Below, in pieces: positions 6,773 to 31,641 of a DNA stretch of 34,259 nucleotides. Both the position numbers and the translations under genes were made by a program. Origin of the DNA: a virus; the IMG/VR virus record IMGVR_UViG_3300036945_000583, positions 1 to 34,259 of that record; one strand, given 5' to 3'. The notes under the pieces are model-generated. The model ran no database searches, was not told the origin of the DNA, and worked only from the letters and a program-made list of their open reading frames with translations. Every line of letters begins with the position of its first letter. Within the stretch, counting starts at the first letter, position 1.

Positions 6773-8610
6773 TATCCTAAACCTAATTGTCCGCCTAAAC
6801 GTCTATTTGCGTTTAACGTATTACTTAAAACTCCTATTAATCGTTGCCCTGATATTTCAAAAACAACTGTTCCGCCACCGTCACCACGTGAAGTAAATCC
6901 GCTACTTGAAAAACTTTGATTGTTTGCCCCTGAACCGCTTCCGCTTGATACACCACCGCCACCACCTATAGAGCTTCCTATAGATTTTGATTTGCTACTA
7001 AAGAATGAACCCAAAGCAACTAAAGCGACACCCGCACCAATCGCTACGGCAGGGTTAAGAGATTTTAAAGCCGTTTTAATAGCTAATAAACCAACTCCGA
7101 CCTGAATAGCCATTTTACCCATTTGTACTAATAAACTACCTAAAGAATCTAATAATGATGCGCCAATAGCTTGTAATACATCGCCACCGTTTGCCAAAGC
7201 ATCTCCTATAGCAGTTCCTAAACCTGAAAAGGCATCTGTTATTGAAGTAGAAATAATGTTGCTTATATTTGCACTAAATTCTTTAAAAGTATCTTCTATT
7301 TCTTTTAATTTAGCTCTTGCCTTTGCACCCGCTTCATCAGGCACTAAATTCATTTGAAGCAAAGGAGAGTTATATTTAAATTGTAATTCAGAAAGAAAAG
7401 TGTCTATTTCTTTTACTACAGTTTCGTCTTTTTTGAACTTGAATTTTATTTCTTCTTCTTTTACCTTTTTACTTTTTAACGTTTTAGGCGTTTCTTTTTC
7501 TAATTCAATAGATGCTTTTGTGCTTTCTTGTACGGCTGTAGTATATTTATTTTGCCAAGCAGTATTTTGTATTAATTGTAATCTTATATCTTTTATAGCA
7601 TTAGAAGAAGTAACAGCACCCGCTACATCAAAAATACTAGCTCGTTTTTTAAATGGGTCTAATAATTGAAAAGCATCACCACCCTTTAAAACTTCTTCTC
7701 TATATTTTCTAGCTTCAACAGCAGTTAATTTATAATTCTTAATAAGTGAAGTAATTTCATTATTAAGTTTATTATTTAACTTTAATTCTTCATTTGCTAG
7801 CTCGCCTAATTTTGAACTAAAAGCACTAGCTTTAGCTCGTTCAATTATAGCAGTTGTTAATTCCTTAACTGTACCTGTAAGATTTCCATTTAATATATTT
7901 TCAGTACTTAAATTAGCAAAATACGCAGGAAATTCTTTTTGTAGATTTTGAACAGCTATTAATCTTTTTTCTCTGCTTAATGTATCATTCTGCGCGACGG
8001 CAACTAAGGCTTTCATATTTGCTATTTCAGCACCCGAATTTTTAGCAGCTTCTTCTGTCGCTTGTTGCATACTTCTAGTAAGACCGTCAAAATTACCTGT
8101 TATCTTATCTATAACATCGCCAACACTTAAGCCTGATTGTGCAAGTAACGTCAATCCTGTAGTAAGTAAAGAAACCCCTAATAAAATACCACCTGTTCCA
8201 GCTATTGATGATGCTAAAGCTTTTAATGCACCACCAGTTGACCCTGTAGCTTGTTTTAAGTATCCAAAACTTTCAACGGTTGCAGTAATGTTGTTTCCTA
8301 TACCTATAATTCCAAAAGGCGCATCTTGTGCGATACGTGAAAACTGCATTAATGCGTTACCACCGTTAGCAACTTTCGGAGCCATTGCGCCAAAACTTGC
8401 ACCCGTATCTTTTACAGTAGATTTAAGAGTGTTTAAATTGTTTTTGGCATCTTTTATTTGGGCATTTATTTCAGTAGTATCTAAGCCTAATTTAAGTCTG
8501 TCAAGTTTAACCTTAGACAATTCCTTAATATCAAACTCAACTTCTTGTATTTTCTTTTGAAAATCGGCAATGTCCGCCCCTATTTGTACTTCTAATTTTC
8601 CGCCTGCCAT
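6772..8610 (-). CDS. Tail tape measure protein
   Basis: 612 residues. It has an N-terminal helical/coiled-coil domain (1-75), a low-complexity Gly/Ala/Ser central part with hydrophobic segments (about 105-165 and 490-560), and a Gly/Ser-rich region near 560-590 before a short C-terminal tail. The motif ALMQFSRIAQDAPFGIIGIGNN at about 87-108 is typical of Bacteroidetes phage tape measure proteins. It sets tail length and is ejected with the DNA. At roughly 1.5 angstrom per residue it would give a tail near 90 nm. It follows the assembly-chaperone genes, as expected. Confidence 0.88.
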   Translation of the reverse strand: MAGGKLEVQIGADIADFQKKIQEVEFDIKELSKVKLDRLKLGLDTTEINAQIKDAKNNLNTLKSTVKDTGASFGAMAPKVANGGNALMQFSRIAQDAPFGIIGIGNNITATVESFGYLKQATGSTGGALKALASSIAGTGGILLGVSLLTTGLTLLAQSGLSVGDVIDKITGNFDGLTRSMQQATEEAAKNSGAEIANMKALVAVAQNDTLSREKRLIAVQNLQKEFPAYFANLSTENILNGNLTGTVKELTTAIIERAKASAFSSKLGELANEELKLNNKLNNEITSLIKNYKLTAVEARKYREEVLKGGDAFQLLDPFKKRASIFDVAGAVTSSNAIKDIRLQLIQNTAWQNKYTTAVQESTKASIELEKETPKTLKSKKVKEEEIKFKFKKDETVVKEIDTFLSELQFKYNSPLLQMNLVPDEAGAKARAKLKEIEDTFKEFSANISNIISTSITDAFSGLGTAIGDALANGGDVLQAIGASLLDSLGSLLVQMGKMAIQVGVGLLAIKTALKSLNPAVAIGAGVALVALGSFFSSKSKSIGSSIGGGGGVSSGSGSGANNQSFSSSGFTSRGDGGGTVVFEISGQRLIGVLSNTLNANRRLGGQLGLG

Positions 8611-24895: not shown

Positions 24896-25282
24896 ATGGA
24901 AAGAATTTATCACAGATACGAATATTGGGAATGTTTTAAAAATGGGTTTTTTAAAAACGTTTCTGGAACAGAAAAAAAAGAGTTGGCAAAAAAAGTTATT
25001 GAAATTTTTGAAAACCCTAAACTAACTGAAAAATTTATGCAAAAAGTAATTGACGAATGGCAATATTCTTGTGAGCATAATTTAACAAACATAGCTTTAA
25101 ATCGTGTAGCTTGGTTAGGTCAATCGGCTTGTTGTTTATATGCTAAAATACCTTATCAAATTACAATGGAAAATTGGAGATTTGTAGATGAAAACAAAAG
25201 AAAAATAGCTTGTGAAATAGCTGAAAAAATAATTAAAGAATATGAAACCAAAAACAAACAATTATGCCTAAACATTTTTTAA
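24896..25282 (+). CDS. Hypothetical protein linked to IbrA-like gene
   Basis: 128 residues, helical, with a distinctive middle part: EWQYSCEHNLTNIALNRVAWLGQSACCLYAKIP at about 59-91, containing three Cys and several conserved-looking polar residues, then a long helix (NKRKIACEIAEKIIKEYE). It overlaps the IbrA-like gene by 19 bases and has its own -7 box, so it heads the block. I do not recognise a family; joint function with IbrA/IbrB is inferred from the overlap only. Confidence 0.65.
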   Translation: MERIYHRYEYWECFKNGFFKNVSGTEKKELAKKVIEIFENPKLTEKFMQKVIDEWQYSCEHNLTNIALNRVAWLGQSACCLYAKIPYQITMENWRFVDENKRKIACEIAEKIIKEYETKNKQLCLNIF

Positions 25283-26478
25283 ATCAAAACGTTTGCGATG
25301 CAAGTATTGAAAGGATAAAATATACTTTTGATAACTTTGAAAAAATATACTTGTCATTTTCAGCAGGTAAAGATAGTACTGTAATGCTTCATTTAGTTAT
25401 GGACGAAGCTATTAAAAGAAACCGTAAAATAGGACTATTGATAGTTGATTTAGAGGGTCAATATAAATTAACCATACAACATATGGAAGCCTGTGTTGAA
25501 ATGTATAAAGAGTATTTAGATGTTTATTGGATATGTTTACCAATACATTTAAGAAATGCAGTTTCTGTGTTTCAACCTTTTTGGAAGTGTTGGGATAAAG
25601 AAGTTAAAAATGATTGGATAAGAGAAGTTCCAAAATTAGGAATAACAGAAGAAAGTAAATTCCCTTTTTTTAGAGACGGAATGGAATTTGAAGAGTTTGT
25701 TCCAGAGTTTGGAGAATGGTATTCTAAAGGTAAAACAACGGCTTGTTTAGTTGGTATTCGTGCCGATGAGAGTTTAAACAGATTTAGAACCATTGCGAGT
25801 AATTCAAAAATAACTTTTAACGAAAAACAATGGACTACTAAAGTAACTGACAATGTATTTAATGTTTACCCAATTTATGATTGGAAAACTGAAGACATTT
25901 GGACTTATCACGGTAAAAATAAAAATAAAAGACATAATGAACTTTATGATGTGATGCATAAAGCAGGACTTTCAATACACTTACAAAGAATTTGTCAGCC
26001 TTATGGAGATGACCAAAGAAGAGGTTTATATTTATTTCACGTTATAGAGCCAGAAACTTGGGCAAAAGTTGTCGCAAGGGTTGAGGGTGCAAATAGTGGT
26101 GCATTATATGTTCAAGATACTGGAAATATAAATGGATATGGAAAAATAACAAAACCAGAACACCACACTTGGAAATCATTTTCAGAATTAATTTTAAAAA
26201 CTTTACCAGAAGTAACTGCTGAACATTACAAAAATAAAATTTACACTTTTATAAATTGGTGGGAGCAAAGAGGTTATTTAGACGGAATACCAGAACAAGC
26301 ACCTGCAATTCTTGAAAGTGAAAGATTAGCACCAAGCTGGAGAAGAATTTGTAAATCACTACTTAGAAATGATTATTGGTGCAAAGGACTTGGATTTACT
26401 CAACACAAAACAGAGGCTTACAATAAATATTTAAAACTAAAAAAAGAACAAAGAGCATTAAACAATTTTAAATTATAA
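25264..26478 (+). CDS. IbrA-like PAPS-reductase/PP-loop protein (DUF3440)
   Basis: 404 residues. The N-terminal PAPS-reductase-like ATP-pyrophosphatase domain has the PP-loop SFSAGKDST at 31-39 and continues to CLVGIRADESLNRF near 161-174 and IYDWKTEDIWTYH. The C-terminal part (HLQRICQPYGDDQRRGL, INWWEQRGYLDGIP, PSWRRICKSLLRNDYWCKGLGF) matches the DUF3440 region of IbrA-type proteins. IbrA and IbrB are known as paired regulators of E. coli eib genes; the chemistry is not established. The domain class activates substrates by adenylation, as in sulfur transfer or DndC-type DNA modification. The next gene, two bases on, is the expected IbrB partner. Confidence 0.85.
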   Translation: MPKHFLNQNVCDASIERIKYTFDNFEKIYLSFSAGKDSTVMLHLVMDEAIKRNRKIGLLIVDLEGQYKLTIQHMEACVEMYKEYLDVYWICLPIHLRNAVSVFQPFWKCWDKEVKNDWIREVPKLGITEESKFPFFRDGMEFEEFVPEFGEWYSKGKTTACLVGIRADESLNRFRTIASNSKITFNEKQWTTKVTDNVFNVYPIYDWKTEDIWTYHGKNKNKRHNELYDVMHKAGLSIHLQRICQPYGDDQRRGLYLFHVIEPETWAKVVARVEGANSGALYVQDTGNINGYGKITKPEHHTWKSFSELILKTLPEVTAEHYKNKIYTFINWWEQRGYLDGIPEQAPAILESERLAPSWRRICKSLLRNDYWCKGLGFTQHKTEAYNKYLKLKKEQRALNNFKL

Positions 26479-27912: not shown

Positions 27913-28051
27913 GATTATAACGGTTCTCGGCTTTGTTTAGTGCCGAAAATTCAAGACAAAACACAAAAGTACACACTAATTTTTAAATTTAAAAACAATG
28001 ATTTCAAACACAAAATTAACCCGCAATCTTGCCAAACTGATGTTAGTGGCA
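27913..28051 (+). repeat. attC-like site 0 (left end, weak 5' arm)
   Basis: The 3' half-site GTTAGTGGCA (28042-28051) is certain because it is complementary to the 3' end of the same cassette at 28280-28289. The 5' half GATTATAAC (27913-27921) followed by GGTTC fits the spacer pattern of the other sites. The internal arms pair poorly, so this may be an attI-like or decayed site. Confidence 0.5.
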
Positions 28052-28288
28052 GTCTTTTCTTTAACATTATTTTCTTGCGAAAATGAAGAAGACAAAATTA
28101 AAGTAGGACAAACTTGGAAAGTAGTTATTGGAGAAAAAAATCCTTATGAAAAACCTACTTTTTTATATAGAAAAGTAATTGATATTCAAGGAGATTATGT
28201 TCAATATATTGAAAATAAAAAAGACACATTAAACGATTCAAAATATTGGTTTCTTGTTTCTGCGGAGTTGGTTGGAGATTGCCACTAA
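27998..28288 (+). CDS. Cassette 1: small lipoprotein
   Basis: 96 residues from ATG 27998, with a lipoprotein signal (KLTRNLAKLMLVAVFSLTLFSC, lipobox LFSC, C27) and an acidic, beta-type mature part (GQTWKVVIGEKNP, KVIDIQGDYVQYI). The cassette border falls at 28042/28043. The cassette itself encodes from LVAVFSL onward, and the positively charged signal start lies in the flanking site. The alternative ATG at 28040-28042 spans the border and gives a signal with no charge. The stop TAA is part of the TAAC half-site. Function unknown. Confidence 0.65.
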   Translation: MISNTKLTRNLAKLMLVAVFSLTLFSCENEEDKIKVGQTWKVVIGEKNPYEKPTFLYRKVIDIQGDYVQYIENKKDTLNDSKYWFLVSAELVGDCH

Positions 28289-28413
28289 CGTTATGTTGCT
28301 TGGCATCTGTTGCCGAGAACGCAAAAGAAGTTATGAAAATTAAATTTAATATCAGCAGCGTATTTTCCGCTGAAAAAATAAACGGCAATAGTGCCAAACA
28401 ACTGTTATAACTC
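28280..28413 (+). repeat. attC-like site 1
   Basis: 5' half TGCCACTAAC (28280-28289), spacer GTTAT, arm GTTGCTTGGCA; 3' arm TGCCAAACAAC (arms pair 10 of 11), then T and half-site GTTATAACTC (28404-28413). The central part holds a CAGCG/CGCTG hairpin and a GCCGAGAAC stretch. Its middle resembles that of site 3. Confidence 0.75.
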
Positions 28414-28421
28414 GTTATTTT

Positions 28422-28703
28422 ATGGAATTATATTTTAAAAATTCAAACGGACAATTACAAGAAACTAATTTAAGACAAATATTGTCTAATGCTTTAAAAA
28501 CTGCAAACTTTGAAATGGATAATGGAAGTTTTGAAGGCGACAATCACAAATGGATAGGTGTTGTTCAGAAAAGCAAAAATAAAACACAAGTTGTTACAAA
28601 CATTACTTTTTTAGACGATGGTAACACGATTACAGGATTACACGTTTACGAAACTCCAATTATAAAAGTTGTCGATGAAGAAAATAGTCGTCAGGTGGTA
28701 TAA
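28422..28703 (+). CDS. Cassette 2: hypothetical protein (93 aa)
   Basis: 93 residues: MELYFKNSNGQLQETNLRQI, then a beta-rich part (HKWIGVVQKSKNKTQVVTNI, NTITGLHVYETPIIKVVDEE). No signal or membrane segment. The ATG is 18 bases after the cassette border and the stop two bases before the terminal repeat, so the ORF fills the cassette. It has no promoter of its own. Function unknown. Confidence 0.65.
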   Translation: MELYFKNSNGQLQETNLRQILSNALKTANFEMDNGSFEGDNHKWIGVVQKSKNKTQVVTNITFLDDGNTITGLHVYETPIIKVVDEENSRQVV

Positions 28704-28704
28704 T

Positions 28705-28843
28705 GAGTTATAACGGCGGAGCATTGCCGAAGAAGCGAAGAAAGTAAGCGAGTGCTTTCGGATAATCACAAAAAATAACAGATACAAAACCAACATCATA
28801 GTTCGCCTTAATTCGCTTTTTTGGCAATGCTATGTTAACAGAA
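28705..28843 (+). repeat. attC-like site 2
   Basis: 5' half GAGTTATAAC (28705-28714), spacer GGCGG and an arm beginning AGCATTGCC. The 3' arm TTCGCTTTTTTGGCAATGCT mirrors the 5' arm for about 20 bases with few mismatches and is followed by AT and half-site GTTAACAGAA (28834-28843). Confidence 0.8.
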
Positions 28844-28851
28844 GCCTTATT

Positions 28852-29244
28852 ATGGTACAAGAAGAAAAAATAGAATACTACGCAAATAATATTGCAAAAG
28901 AACTTTGTGATATAGTTCATTTTTCAGTTGAAAATGTTTCTGTTCTTTTAAAATCAAGAATTAGAATTTTAATGCACGATGTATTGAATGATGAAATTTC
29001 AGAATTAGAAAAAAAACGTTCATTTATGGTTGATGAATATTCAAGCGATAAAGTTCCAGCGTGGCGTAAAAGAGAATTACAATCTAAAATTGCGGAATTG
29101 AATGTAGAATTGAAAAAAGCACGTAAAAACGCAGATACAATAAGAATTTCAAGAGAATTTGAGTTACTAAAAAAAGAATGTAACAATAATCTTCCGAAAG
29201 AATTTATGGAAAGATATTACGAACTTCAAAAGCAGTTACGCTAA
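28852..29244 (+). CDS. Cassette 3: coiled-coil hypothetical protein (130 aa)
   Basis: 130 residues, almost wholly helical and charged. An N-terminal domain (EEKIEYYANNIAKELCDIVHFSVE) leads into a coiled coil (LNDEISELEKKRSFMV, RELQSKIAELNVELKKARKN). The ATG lies 18 bases after the cassette border, the same offset as in cassette 2. The stop is four bases before the terminal repeat. It is more lysine- and arginine-rich than the phage genes around it. Function unknown. Confidence 0.65.
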   Translation: MVQEEKIEYYANNIAKELCDIVHFSVENVSVLLKSRIRILMHDVLNDEISELEKKRSFMVDEYSSDKVPAWRKRELQSKIAELNVELKKARKNADTIRISREFELLKKECNNNLPKEFMERYYELQKQLR

Positions 29245-29248
29245 AGGT

Positions 29249-29392
29249 TTCTGTTAACGTTCCTGTGCTTTCTTTAGTGGCTTGATTTCAAGACCAAGCC
29301 AATAAAACACAAAATTAAGATTGAAGTCAACAGCGGTTTTTCCGCAGGAAAAACCTAACCCAAGCCATTGAAGAAAACACGTGTTAGTAGAT
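29249..29392 (+). repeat. attC-like site 3
   Basis: 5' half TTCTGTTAAC (29249-29258), spacer GTTCC and arm TGTGCTTTCTTTAGTGGCTTG; 3' arm CAAGCCATTGAAGAAAACAC, then GT and half-site GTTAGTAGAT (29383-29392). The arms pair over more than 15 positions with some extrahelical bases. An inner GCGG-TTTTT-CCGC hairpin is shared in kind with site 1. Confidence 0.8.
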
Positions 29393-29428
29393 GGCTTTTT
29401 ATTCAGAAACAATTTAAAAAACAATATT

Positions 29429-29752
29429 ATGTCAAAATATACAACAAATAGAGAAACTCCAAAAAAATTCGAGTGTACTAAAAGAAAATGTAAATGGCAA
29501 GGAACTGATGAAGAAAAAGGAAGTCAGTATTTGGATAATGGATTTACAGAATTGATTTGTCCTAAATGCTGTAACAATGAGTTTTATGGTTTGCGTGAAG
29601 GATTAAGATTTACGCATATAGAAACTGGCAATACTGGAGAATTCATCAAAGTTTATAAGCCAACAGGAAAGCCTTACACTATGCAGATAAAGTTAGATGA
29701 TGGACGTATATATTTCGCTCCAAAAGTTGAATTTAAGCAATGTAGTTCATAA
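29429..29752 (+). CDS. Cassette 4: zinc-ribbon-like hypothetical protein (107 aa)
   Basis: 107 residues. The N-terminal half has a likely zinc site (FECTKRKCKWQG and ELICPKCCNNEFYG), followed by a beta domain (RFTHIETGNTGEFIKVYKPTGKPYTMQIKLDDGRIYFAPK). A longer frame begins at 29381 in the recombination site; the ATG at 29429 after an A-rich leader is preferred. The stop is three bases before the terminal repeat. Function unknown. Confidence 0.65.
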   Translation: MSKYTTNRETPKKFECTKRKCKWQGTDEEKGSQYLDNGFTELICPKCCNNEFYGLREGLRFTHIETGNTGEFIKVYKPTGKPYTMQIKLDDGRIYFAPKVEFKQCSS

Positions 29753-29755
29753 GCT

Positions 29756-29892
29756 ATCTACTAACGGCGGACGCTTGTAGCAGGAGGAAAAGATAAATCC
29801 TGATTATTGAATTAATGACTAATTATAAAAGTACAAAATTATGTTTAAATTAAAGACTAAAATCCTCTTGCTACAAACGTATGTTATGTGTA
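29756..29892 (+). repeat. attC-like site 4
   Basis: 5' half ATCTACTAAC (29756-29765), spacer GGCGG and arm ACGCTTGTAGCAGGAGG; 3' arm CCTCTTGCTACAAACGT (15 of 17 complementary), then AT and half-site GTTATGTGTA (29883-29892). The clearest of the arm pairs. Confidence 0.85.
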
Positions 29893-30032
29893 GTTTAGGA
29901 TTTCACAAATGGAAAAATATTGACAGATATACACCAATTCCTAAAGATGGAGAAATGATTTGCTTTCAAAATTTACACGAATGTAAAAACTGTAAAAAAC
30001 AAGAATACAAAGGGATGGGTTGTATTATATAA
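29886..30032 (+). CDS. Cassette 5: small Cys-rich protein (48 aa)
   Basis: 48 residues from the ATG at 29886, just inside the cassette: MCSLGFHKWKNIDRYTPIPK... with HECKNCKKQEYKGMGC, a possible small zinc-binding knuckle. The frame extends upstream to 29841, but that part is recombination-site sequence. The stop is two bases before the terminal repeat TACACATAAC. Function unknown. Confidence 0.6.
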   Translation: MCSLGFHKWKNIDRYTPIPKDGEMICFQNLHECKNCKKQEYKGMGCII

Positions 30033-30034
30033 AT

Positions 30035-30075
30035 TACACATAACTTGATGATAAGCGAAGGTTTGTTTCGCCAAT
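30035..30075 (+). repeat. Truncated attC-like site 5 (right end of the array)
   Basis: 5' half TACACATAAC (30035-30044), spacer TTGAT, then a short GCGAA...TTCGC hairpin. No GTTA half-site follows, and the next gene starts at 30095, so this end appears decayed or was formed by a different event. Confidence 0.55.
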
Positions 30076-31100: not shown

Positions 31101-31200
31101 TATCAACCAAAAACTAAATATTATGAAAACATTGTAAAGATAACGATTTTTTCTATTTAAAATACTTTTTATACAAAAAATAAATAGGTAATAAAATAGT

Positions 31201-31271
31201 TTCAGTAGAGAGATTTGAACTCCCATCTTTTGGTTCGTAGCCAAATATTCTATCCATTAAACTATACTGAA
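31201..31271 (-). tRNA. tRNA-Arg (ACG)
   Basis: 71 nt on the minus strand. Acceptor arms TTCAGTA/TACTGAA; anticodon stem TTTGG/CCAAA with loop CTACGAA, anticodon ACG. A34 would need conversion to inosine by a TadA-type enzyme. No 3' CCA is encoded. Confidence 0.9.
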
Positions 31272-31277
31272 TTTTGT

Positions 31278-31350
31278 ACGCTAAGAAAGACTCGAACTTT
31301 CAAATATAGGTTTCTAAGACCTACGTGTCTACCAATTCCACCATTAGCGC
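31278..31350 (-). tRNA. tRNA-Leu (TAG), short variable loop
   Basis: 73 nt. Acceptor GCGCTAA/TTAGCGT (one wobble pair), a leucine-type D arm (GTGGAATTGGTAGACAC), anticodon stem TAGGT/ACCTA with loop CTTAGAA (anticodon TAG) and T arm GAAAG-TTCGAGT-CTTTC. The variable loop is only five bases (TATTT), unlike the long arm usual for leucine tRNAs. Confidence 0.85.
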
Positions 31351-31356
31351 ATTTTG

Positions 31357-31430
31357 GGTGTTATATCGGATTCGAACCGATGTAATTGGATTCACAGTCC
31401 AACCGCCTTACCGCTAAGCGCAATAACACC
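31357..31430 (-). tRNA. tRNA-His (GTG)
   Basis: 74 nt. Acceptor GGTGTTA/TAACACC; anticodon stem TTGGA/TCCAA with loop CTGTGAA, anticodon GTG. The base before the acceptor is T, not an encoded G-1. Confidence 0.9.
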
Positions 31431-31440
31431 ATATAATAGT

Positions 31441-31510
31441 TTCAGATAATGGATTCGAACCACTACAAACAGAGTCAAAGTCTGTTATGCTACCTTTACA
31501 TCAATCTGAA
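31441..31510 (-). tRNA. tRNA-Gln (TTG)
   Basis: 70 nt. Acceptor TTCAGAT/ATCTGAA; anticodon stem ACAGA/TCTGT with loop CTTTGAC, anticodon TTG; T loop TTCGAAT present. Confidence 0.88.
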
Positions 31511-31569
31511 TTAATCTTGTTCTATGCTCCTTTTATATAAGTCTATGCACAAGTAACAGTCCTTATCGT

Positions 31570-31641
31570 GGCAAGTGTGGGACTCGAACCCACAATCTCC
31601 CGATTCCAAGTCGGGCACTTAGCCAATTTTGTGAACTCGCC
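31570..31641 (-). tRNA. tRNA-Pro (TGG)
   Basis: 72 nt. Acceptor GGCGAGT/ACTTGCC (one G-T pair); anticodon stem CCCGA/TCGGG with loop CTTGGAA, anticodon TGG; T arm TGTGG-GTTCGAGT-CCCAC. More GC-rich than the other four. Confidence 0.92.

Follow-up and report, generated by a model that had tools for sequence, protein, structure and literature searches.

What kind of element is the row of small genes and hairpin-like repeats at positions 27,913-30,075 of a phage contig, and what might move it? The window analysed here is that whole contig of 34,259 nucleotides (IMG/VR record IMGVR_UViG_3300036945_000583), which encodes the portal, terminase, primase/helicase and exonuclease of a phage. The original prediction took the region for an integron-like gene cassette array with four attC-like sites; we find five such sites and five single-gene cassettes (Table 1). 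Comparison with related sequences indicates that the region is very probably a five-cassette mobile array, part of an integron-like system found in Bacteroidota and in their phages, with an XerA-like recombinase as its most likely mover. Clusters of cassettes in phages (CALINs) were already published in 2023 (Front Microbiol, PMC9892861), and as in the present window these arrays lack an integrase; their carriers are lytic phages, one of them a Polaribacter phage. Hardly any integrons have been reported from Bacteroidetes (PMC9024848), and among open-access papers, preprints excluded, we found none that describes this recombinase, its sites or their 5' polarity.

Sites and cassettes in the window

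The predicted layout of the sites is present at 28286, 28711, 29255 and 29762, where sites 1-4 each consist of TAAC, 5-6 nt, imperfect arms of ~20 nt, 1-2 nt and GTTA. A detector for such arms finds four sites in the window, all on the + strand and all inside the 27,913-30,075 stretch; 20 dinucleotide shuffles gave two sites on both strands together, or ~0.1 per shuffled window. The covariance model, the check proposed with the original prediction, recovers the same sites and a fifth, with the qualification that it was partly trained on sites 1-4, so that only site 0 is an additional match (CM R1, 53.8 bits, E 2e-10, filters off); with default filters it misses the window's own sites despite their presence in its alignment. 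Site 0, whose arms are degenerate, has an R' box, GTTAGTGGCAGTCTT at 28042, that complements the R'' box at 28275-28289.

Table 1. Features of the cassette array, in window coordinates.
Feature	Position	Strand	Remarks
attC-like site 0	27918..28045	+	arms degenerate; precedes cassette gene 1 and includes its start codon
cassette gene 1	27998..28288	+	small lipoprotein-like ORF; first codons within site 0
attC-like site 1	28286..28407	+	arm detector and covariance model
cassette 2 (R' to R'')	28404..28714	+	ORF 28422-28703, phrog_31941
attC-like site 2	28711..28837	+	arm detector and covariance model; DNA folding z -3.2
cassette 3 (R' to R'')	28834..29258	+	ORF 28852-29244, no function assigned; cognate 15-nt ends
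attC-like site 3	29255..29386	+	arm detector and covariance model
cassette 4 (R' to R'')	29383..29765	+	ORF 29429-29752, no function assigned; cognate ends
attC-like site 4	29762..29886	+	contains gene 5 start codon; arm detector and covariance model
cassette gene 5	29841..30032	+	start codon and first 14 codons inside site 4
terminal lone R'' half-site	30030..30044	+	no arms downstream, no TACTATATG attI-type sequence

A Pfam search with the translation of cassette gene 1 gave no family match, and a protein search of viral_contigs gave no relatives of the cassette 3 protein. The cassette 4 ORF has a longer alternative start, GTG at 29381. As the terminal R'' box is not followed by the attI-type sequence, the window array has no recognisable attI at its end; the 34-kb contig contains neither a recombinase gene nor an attI.

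Cognate ends and folding of the sites

The ends of each cassette belong together. In every cassette of the window the opening 15 nt (GTTA plus 11) are complementary to the closing 15 nt of the same cassette (11 plus TAAC), in a sequence that differs from one cassette to the next, with a single constant mismatch at position 11. Such complementarity within one unit is expected if the two ends meet on a circular cassette. At least 9 of the 11 positions match at four window sites, site 0 not being counted, whereas the same test on 100 shuffled windows gave no case in 99 and a single case in one. Mean matching of R' with R'' is 8.8/11 inside a cassette and 3.5 across cassettes. Among 249 related cassettes, position 11 of the R box is G in R' opposite T in R'' in 235, and 149 have a T at position 5 of R'. 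GTTRRRY is thus not followed, and the statement that the half-sites depart from the RYYYAAC/GTTRRRY rule is borne out on this larger set. Because the arm detector and the covariance model both select for arms, covariation within the arms is in part a product of that selection, a circularity that affects neither the cassette borders nor the fixed mismatch at position 11.

Folding of three window sites surpasses that of almost every dinucleotide shuffle, whichever strand is taken (z -2.4 to -3.2); for site 3, at 29255, z is -2.1 on the + strand and -3.5 on the - strand. The degenerate site 0 folds no better than chance by the same measure. A candidate promoter motif within the site (TAnnTTTG) was rejected, being present in 15 of 284 sites where 17 were expected.

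The mobile unit and its relatives

As in integrons, single-gene cassettes stand in tandem with hairpin sites between them, and the outer boxes pair within one cassette. Which side of the gene does the site belong to? The original prediction has each site following its ORF on the 3' side, in the manner of integrons, which the phage arrays do not bear out. Loci L075 and L173 have in common 324 bp at 99.7% identity, running from TAAC through arms, GTTA and gene up to the next TAAC, with unrelated sequence on both flanks; the two are clearly different integrons, with recombinases in separate branches of the tree. In L181 a 394-bp cassette occurs twice at 100% identity, and its downstream copy abuts attI. 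Taken together, the shared unit and the duplication imply that a moving gene takes along the site on its 5' side, and the position of the second L181 copy implies that new copies enter at the recombinase end. Such exact-border cases are few, namely this one shared and this one duplicated cassette with their sites, and the gene borders of cassette 2.

The site is often part of the gene. In 93 of 249 cassettes the site already contains the first ATG, as it does for genes 1 and 5 of the window (in cassette 5, MFKLKTKILLLQTYV is a peptide that the site would encode), and in 53 of 249 the gene stops on the TAA of TAAC. Site-encoded N-termini also recur before different genes (L108, L116, L120, L121, L132, L134 and L183), for example ...ENLNISDV..., as if the site added a common leader peptide.

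The same kind of array is found well beyond this phage. Site 1 is 91% identical to a site of Flavobacterium phage hattifnatt9-1, with different neighbouring genes; this cultured phage was reached through a blastn match spanning exactly one site and no neighbouring gene, and the covariance model finds eight sites in it, on one strand. Site 4 has a counterpart of 93% identity in viral contig L084, and dozens of IMG/VR contigs carry the array type. Three further viral contigs contain cassette 2 (92-98% protein identity), and in two of them (L008 and L009) the DNA match stops at GTTA and at TAAC, within two bases. Cassettes thus appear in new contexts with exact borders, which supports the prediction of integron-like cassettes on a phage. 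Arms alone are 85-99% alike between unrelated cassettes. The four phages with cassette 2, an old cassette, have neither arm in common, indicating additional reassortment of arms with genes, or else rapid divergence.

Sister phages chosen by the neighbouring exonuclease (L003-L006) gave no sites with the arm detector, and a precise empty site could not be read in them because the region downstream is not syntenic. One of these contigs, L004, ends inside a covariance-model site (8052-8172), 2.1 kb beyond the shared exonuclease, and seems to carry, with no cassette around it, a gene related to one of the hattifnatt cassette genes. Polaribacter phage P12002L has one cassette of the present type (L184, 14502-15200; R' GTTGTGTACAGTACT, R'' GGTATTGTACACAAC). 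Its gene has the polarity of the chromosomal arrays described below, and the cassette lies far from the methyltransferase genes of this phage, the position given for the published CALIN.

An XerA-like recombinase adjoins related arrays

Related viral contigs supply what the window lacks. The array in L008 runs into a tyrosine recombinase gene, and such arrays usually end in a short conserved attI-like sequence directly before this gene. The consensus is TAAC-TACTATATGTA, or a clade-specific variant, and is reached directly by the last R'' box; in L010 and L012 it lies ~55-60 bp before the recombinase start codon. Related recombinase loci are alike up to attI and divergent upstream of it. An attI beside the recombinase, with insertion there, is seen in related viral contigs and in Flavobacterium genomes, but not in the window.

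Over all recombinase loci, 330 sites share the strand of the recombinase gene, against 20 on the opposite strand. Sites lie upstream in 69 of the 79 loci of the recombinase clade that have sufficient upstream sequence, and at only two loci outside the clade, counts and groups that rest on a quick tree. That no integrase is present holds for the 34-kb contig, but in most related viral contigs with enough upstream sequence the recombinase adjoins the array. Phage primases, helicases and head maturation proteases are encoded in the flanks of the recombinase contigs. The closest relative of the integrase among INPHARED phages is only ~35% identical, and a clade integrase is found in one of 299 genomes of the genus of L012 at E 1e-70.

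What kind of recombinase is it? The protein is a 266-residue, XerA-like tyrosine recombinase with invariant catalytic residues Arg132, Lys157, His216, Arg219, His242 and Tyr251 (the R-K-H-R-H-Y set). Its predicted fold is that of a tyrosine recombinase, and the nearest structures are XerA (Z 23.2) and VchIntIA, the Vibrio cholerae integron integrase (PDB 2a3v; Z 21.0, 27% identity), which has the same fold and is ~50 residues longer. XerA and XerC-like recombinases, of ~266 residues, are the best NCBIfam and structural matches (NF040815; PDB 5hxy, 4a8e). The array-associated enzymes nevertheless differ from XerA in scoring below the NF040815 cutoff (168-193 bits in five of them, 185 for the query, against 220) and in the position of the gene beside cassette arrays. 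They also fall short of the IntI model TIGR02249 (126-176 bits in the same five, 147 for the query, against 265), which the query matches in two pieces. IntI proteins are longer, at 320-337 residues, and this difference in length, with the split match, suggests that the recombinase may lack the IntI-specific insertion of the catalytic domain. Both IntI controls fall outside the recombinase clade in the quick tree.

Chromosomal arrays and strand bias

The same sites are widespread in chromosomes. With counts and E-values that are rough, the covariance model has matches in 190 of 249 genomes of Flavobacteriaceae, the family of L012, at E 1e-4, in 128 of 296 genomes of its phylum, Bacteroidota, at E 1e-5, and in none of three control genomes. 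Genes in these chromosomal arrays, however, have the opposite polarity relative to the site: 68 to 5, compared with 3 to 231 in viral contigs. The chromosomal arrays thus show the usual integron polarity, with the site 3' of the cassette gene. That phages move cassettes between Bacteroidetes arrays, as had been suggested, is plausible in that sites of the same build are common in chromosomes; the two groups nevertheless differ in gene polarity.

This flip of the genes separates the strand of the site from the strand of the transcript. G.T wobbles in the arms of phage arrays number 374 on the gene-sense strand and 83 on the other. In chromosomal arrays the asymmetry is 98 to 26, and the position-11 G.T is present in 68 of 73, on the strand that is antisense to most genes. 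The wobble bias stays with the site despite the flipped genes, and this argues for selection on folded DNA rather than RNA. In classical integrons it is the bottom strand of attC that folds, and the strand bias matches this classical polarity once gene orientation is set aside.

Many chromosomal Bacteroidota arrays of the same sites were seen in the usual polarity (L209-L231, L021 and other loci), and in Daejeonella (L209) one 450-bp cassette is apparently present twice. XerA-like recombinases at 45-71% to the Croceivirga one lie within a few kb of such arrays in several genomes (L232-L236 and L021 8001-8801), and in L021 the first cassette begins ~60 bp past the recombinase gene.

Alternative explanations

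Could the array simply be an ordinary CALIN of a canonical integron, its sites being true attC moved by a classical host IntI? The attC-like architecture of the sites would suit this. Single-gene cassettes, hairpin sites closing on a circle and an attI adjoining a tyrosine recombinase are features in common with IntI integrons and phage CALINs. Classical attC sites, however, have spacers of about 5/5, whereas here they are asymmetric, 5/1-2; the R boxes are 15 nt long with a fixed G.T at position 11 and break GTTRRRY, and the neighbouring recombinase is not IntI, being far from it in sequence and in the tree. The site, moreover, travels 5' of the gene and is often coding, with the phage-array genes pointing toward attI, in which the phage arrays are unlike both IntI integrons and phage CALINs. 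In favour of such an origin, IntI1 can act on certain attC sites carried by phages, among them one of the two assayed from P12002L (PMC9892861); against it, the only complete Bacteroidetes integron reported by IntegronFinder 2 is in Salinibacter ruber (PMC9024848). We therefore consider an origin from a canonical integron unlikely.

Shuffling of phage genes by homologous recombination between similar intergenic repeats is less likely still. Arms common to unrelated cassettes, at the identities given above, and the Erf-like annealing protein encoded by the window phage would favour it, but such a process would not give cassette-specific complementary ends, and accounts neither for insertion by a conserved attI beside a recombinase nor for a unit with TAAC at both borders. 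That the elements are transcription terminators or RNA switches between small genes, rather than recombination sites, can hardly be credited. They are stem-loops between genes, and in phage arrays the G.T wobbles favour the sense strand; the loops, however, are very long, the complementarity links the two ends of each gene unit instead of spanning one intergenic spacer, and whole units recur with exact borders. The reading fails on the chromosomal arrays, where the G.T bias goes with the DNA site and lies on the strand antisense to most genes.

Proposed mechanism and cargo

Recombination of mobile cassettes remains the preferred reading, and we propose a model for it. Each cassette comprises a 5-nt spacer, stem arms, the GTTA-bearing R' box, the gene and an R'' box ending in TAA(C). 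On the circular form, R'' and R' of one cassette would pair to give a hairpin site on the gene-sense strand. In the chemistry that we infer, the XerA-like tyrosine recombinase most likely cuts this folded single strand within TAAC, at TAA^C, and the cut strand would be joined to attI (TAAC|TACTATATGTA) directly before the recombinase gene, so that new cassettes would be added at the array's 3' end. In phage arrays the site lies 5' of each gene and often gives it a start codon and N-terminal codons, and the R'' box often provides the stop codon. Since the window contig has cassettes and no recombinase, its array may be served in trans, by a recombinase of this kind acting on the window sites, or may be a remnant.

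On the sequence comparisons made here, it seems fairly probable that Bacteroidota and their phages, some with contigs of >200 kb, harbour a second, non-IntI lineage of integrons with XerA-like recombinases, in which the phage genes are flipped relative to the site, leaving it as a 5' leader from which each new gene often takes its start codon and N-terminus. If active, the system would be a platform for gene capture in a major phylum and its phages, and would show a non-IntI recombinase using folded-DNA cassette sites. Hattifnatt9-1, cultured and with eight sites, makes the claim testable.

Among the cargo of related arrays are DNA methyltransferases, Mom, GNAT and PAPS reductase domains, although most cargo has no assigned family; the methyltransferases and Mom would fit an anti-restriction function. 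The window also encodes, at 25264-26478, a PAPS-reductase-like phage protein (phrog_2302), with the same domain as that found among this cargo. Downstream of the array, five clustered tRNA genes (Arg, Leu, His, Gln and Pro) lie on the minus strand at 31199-31641.
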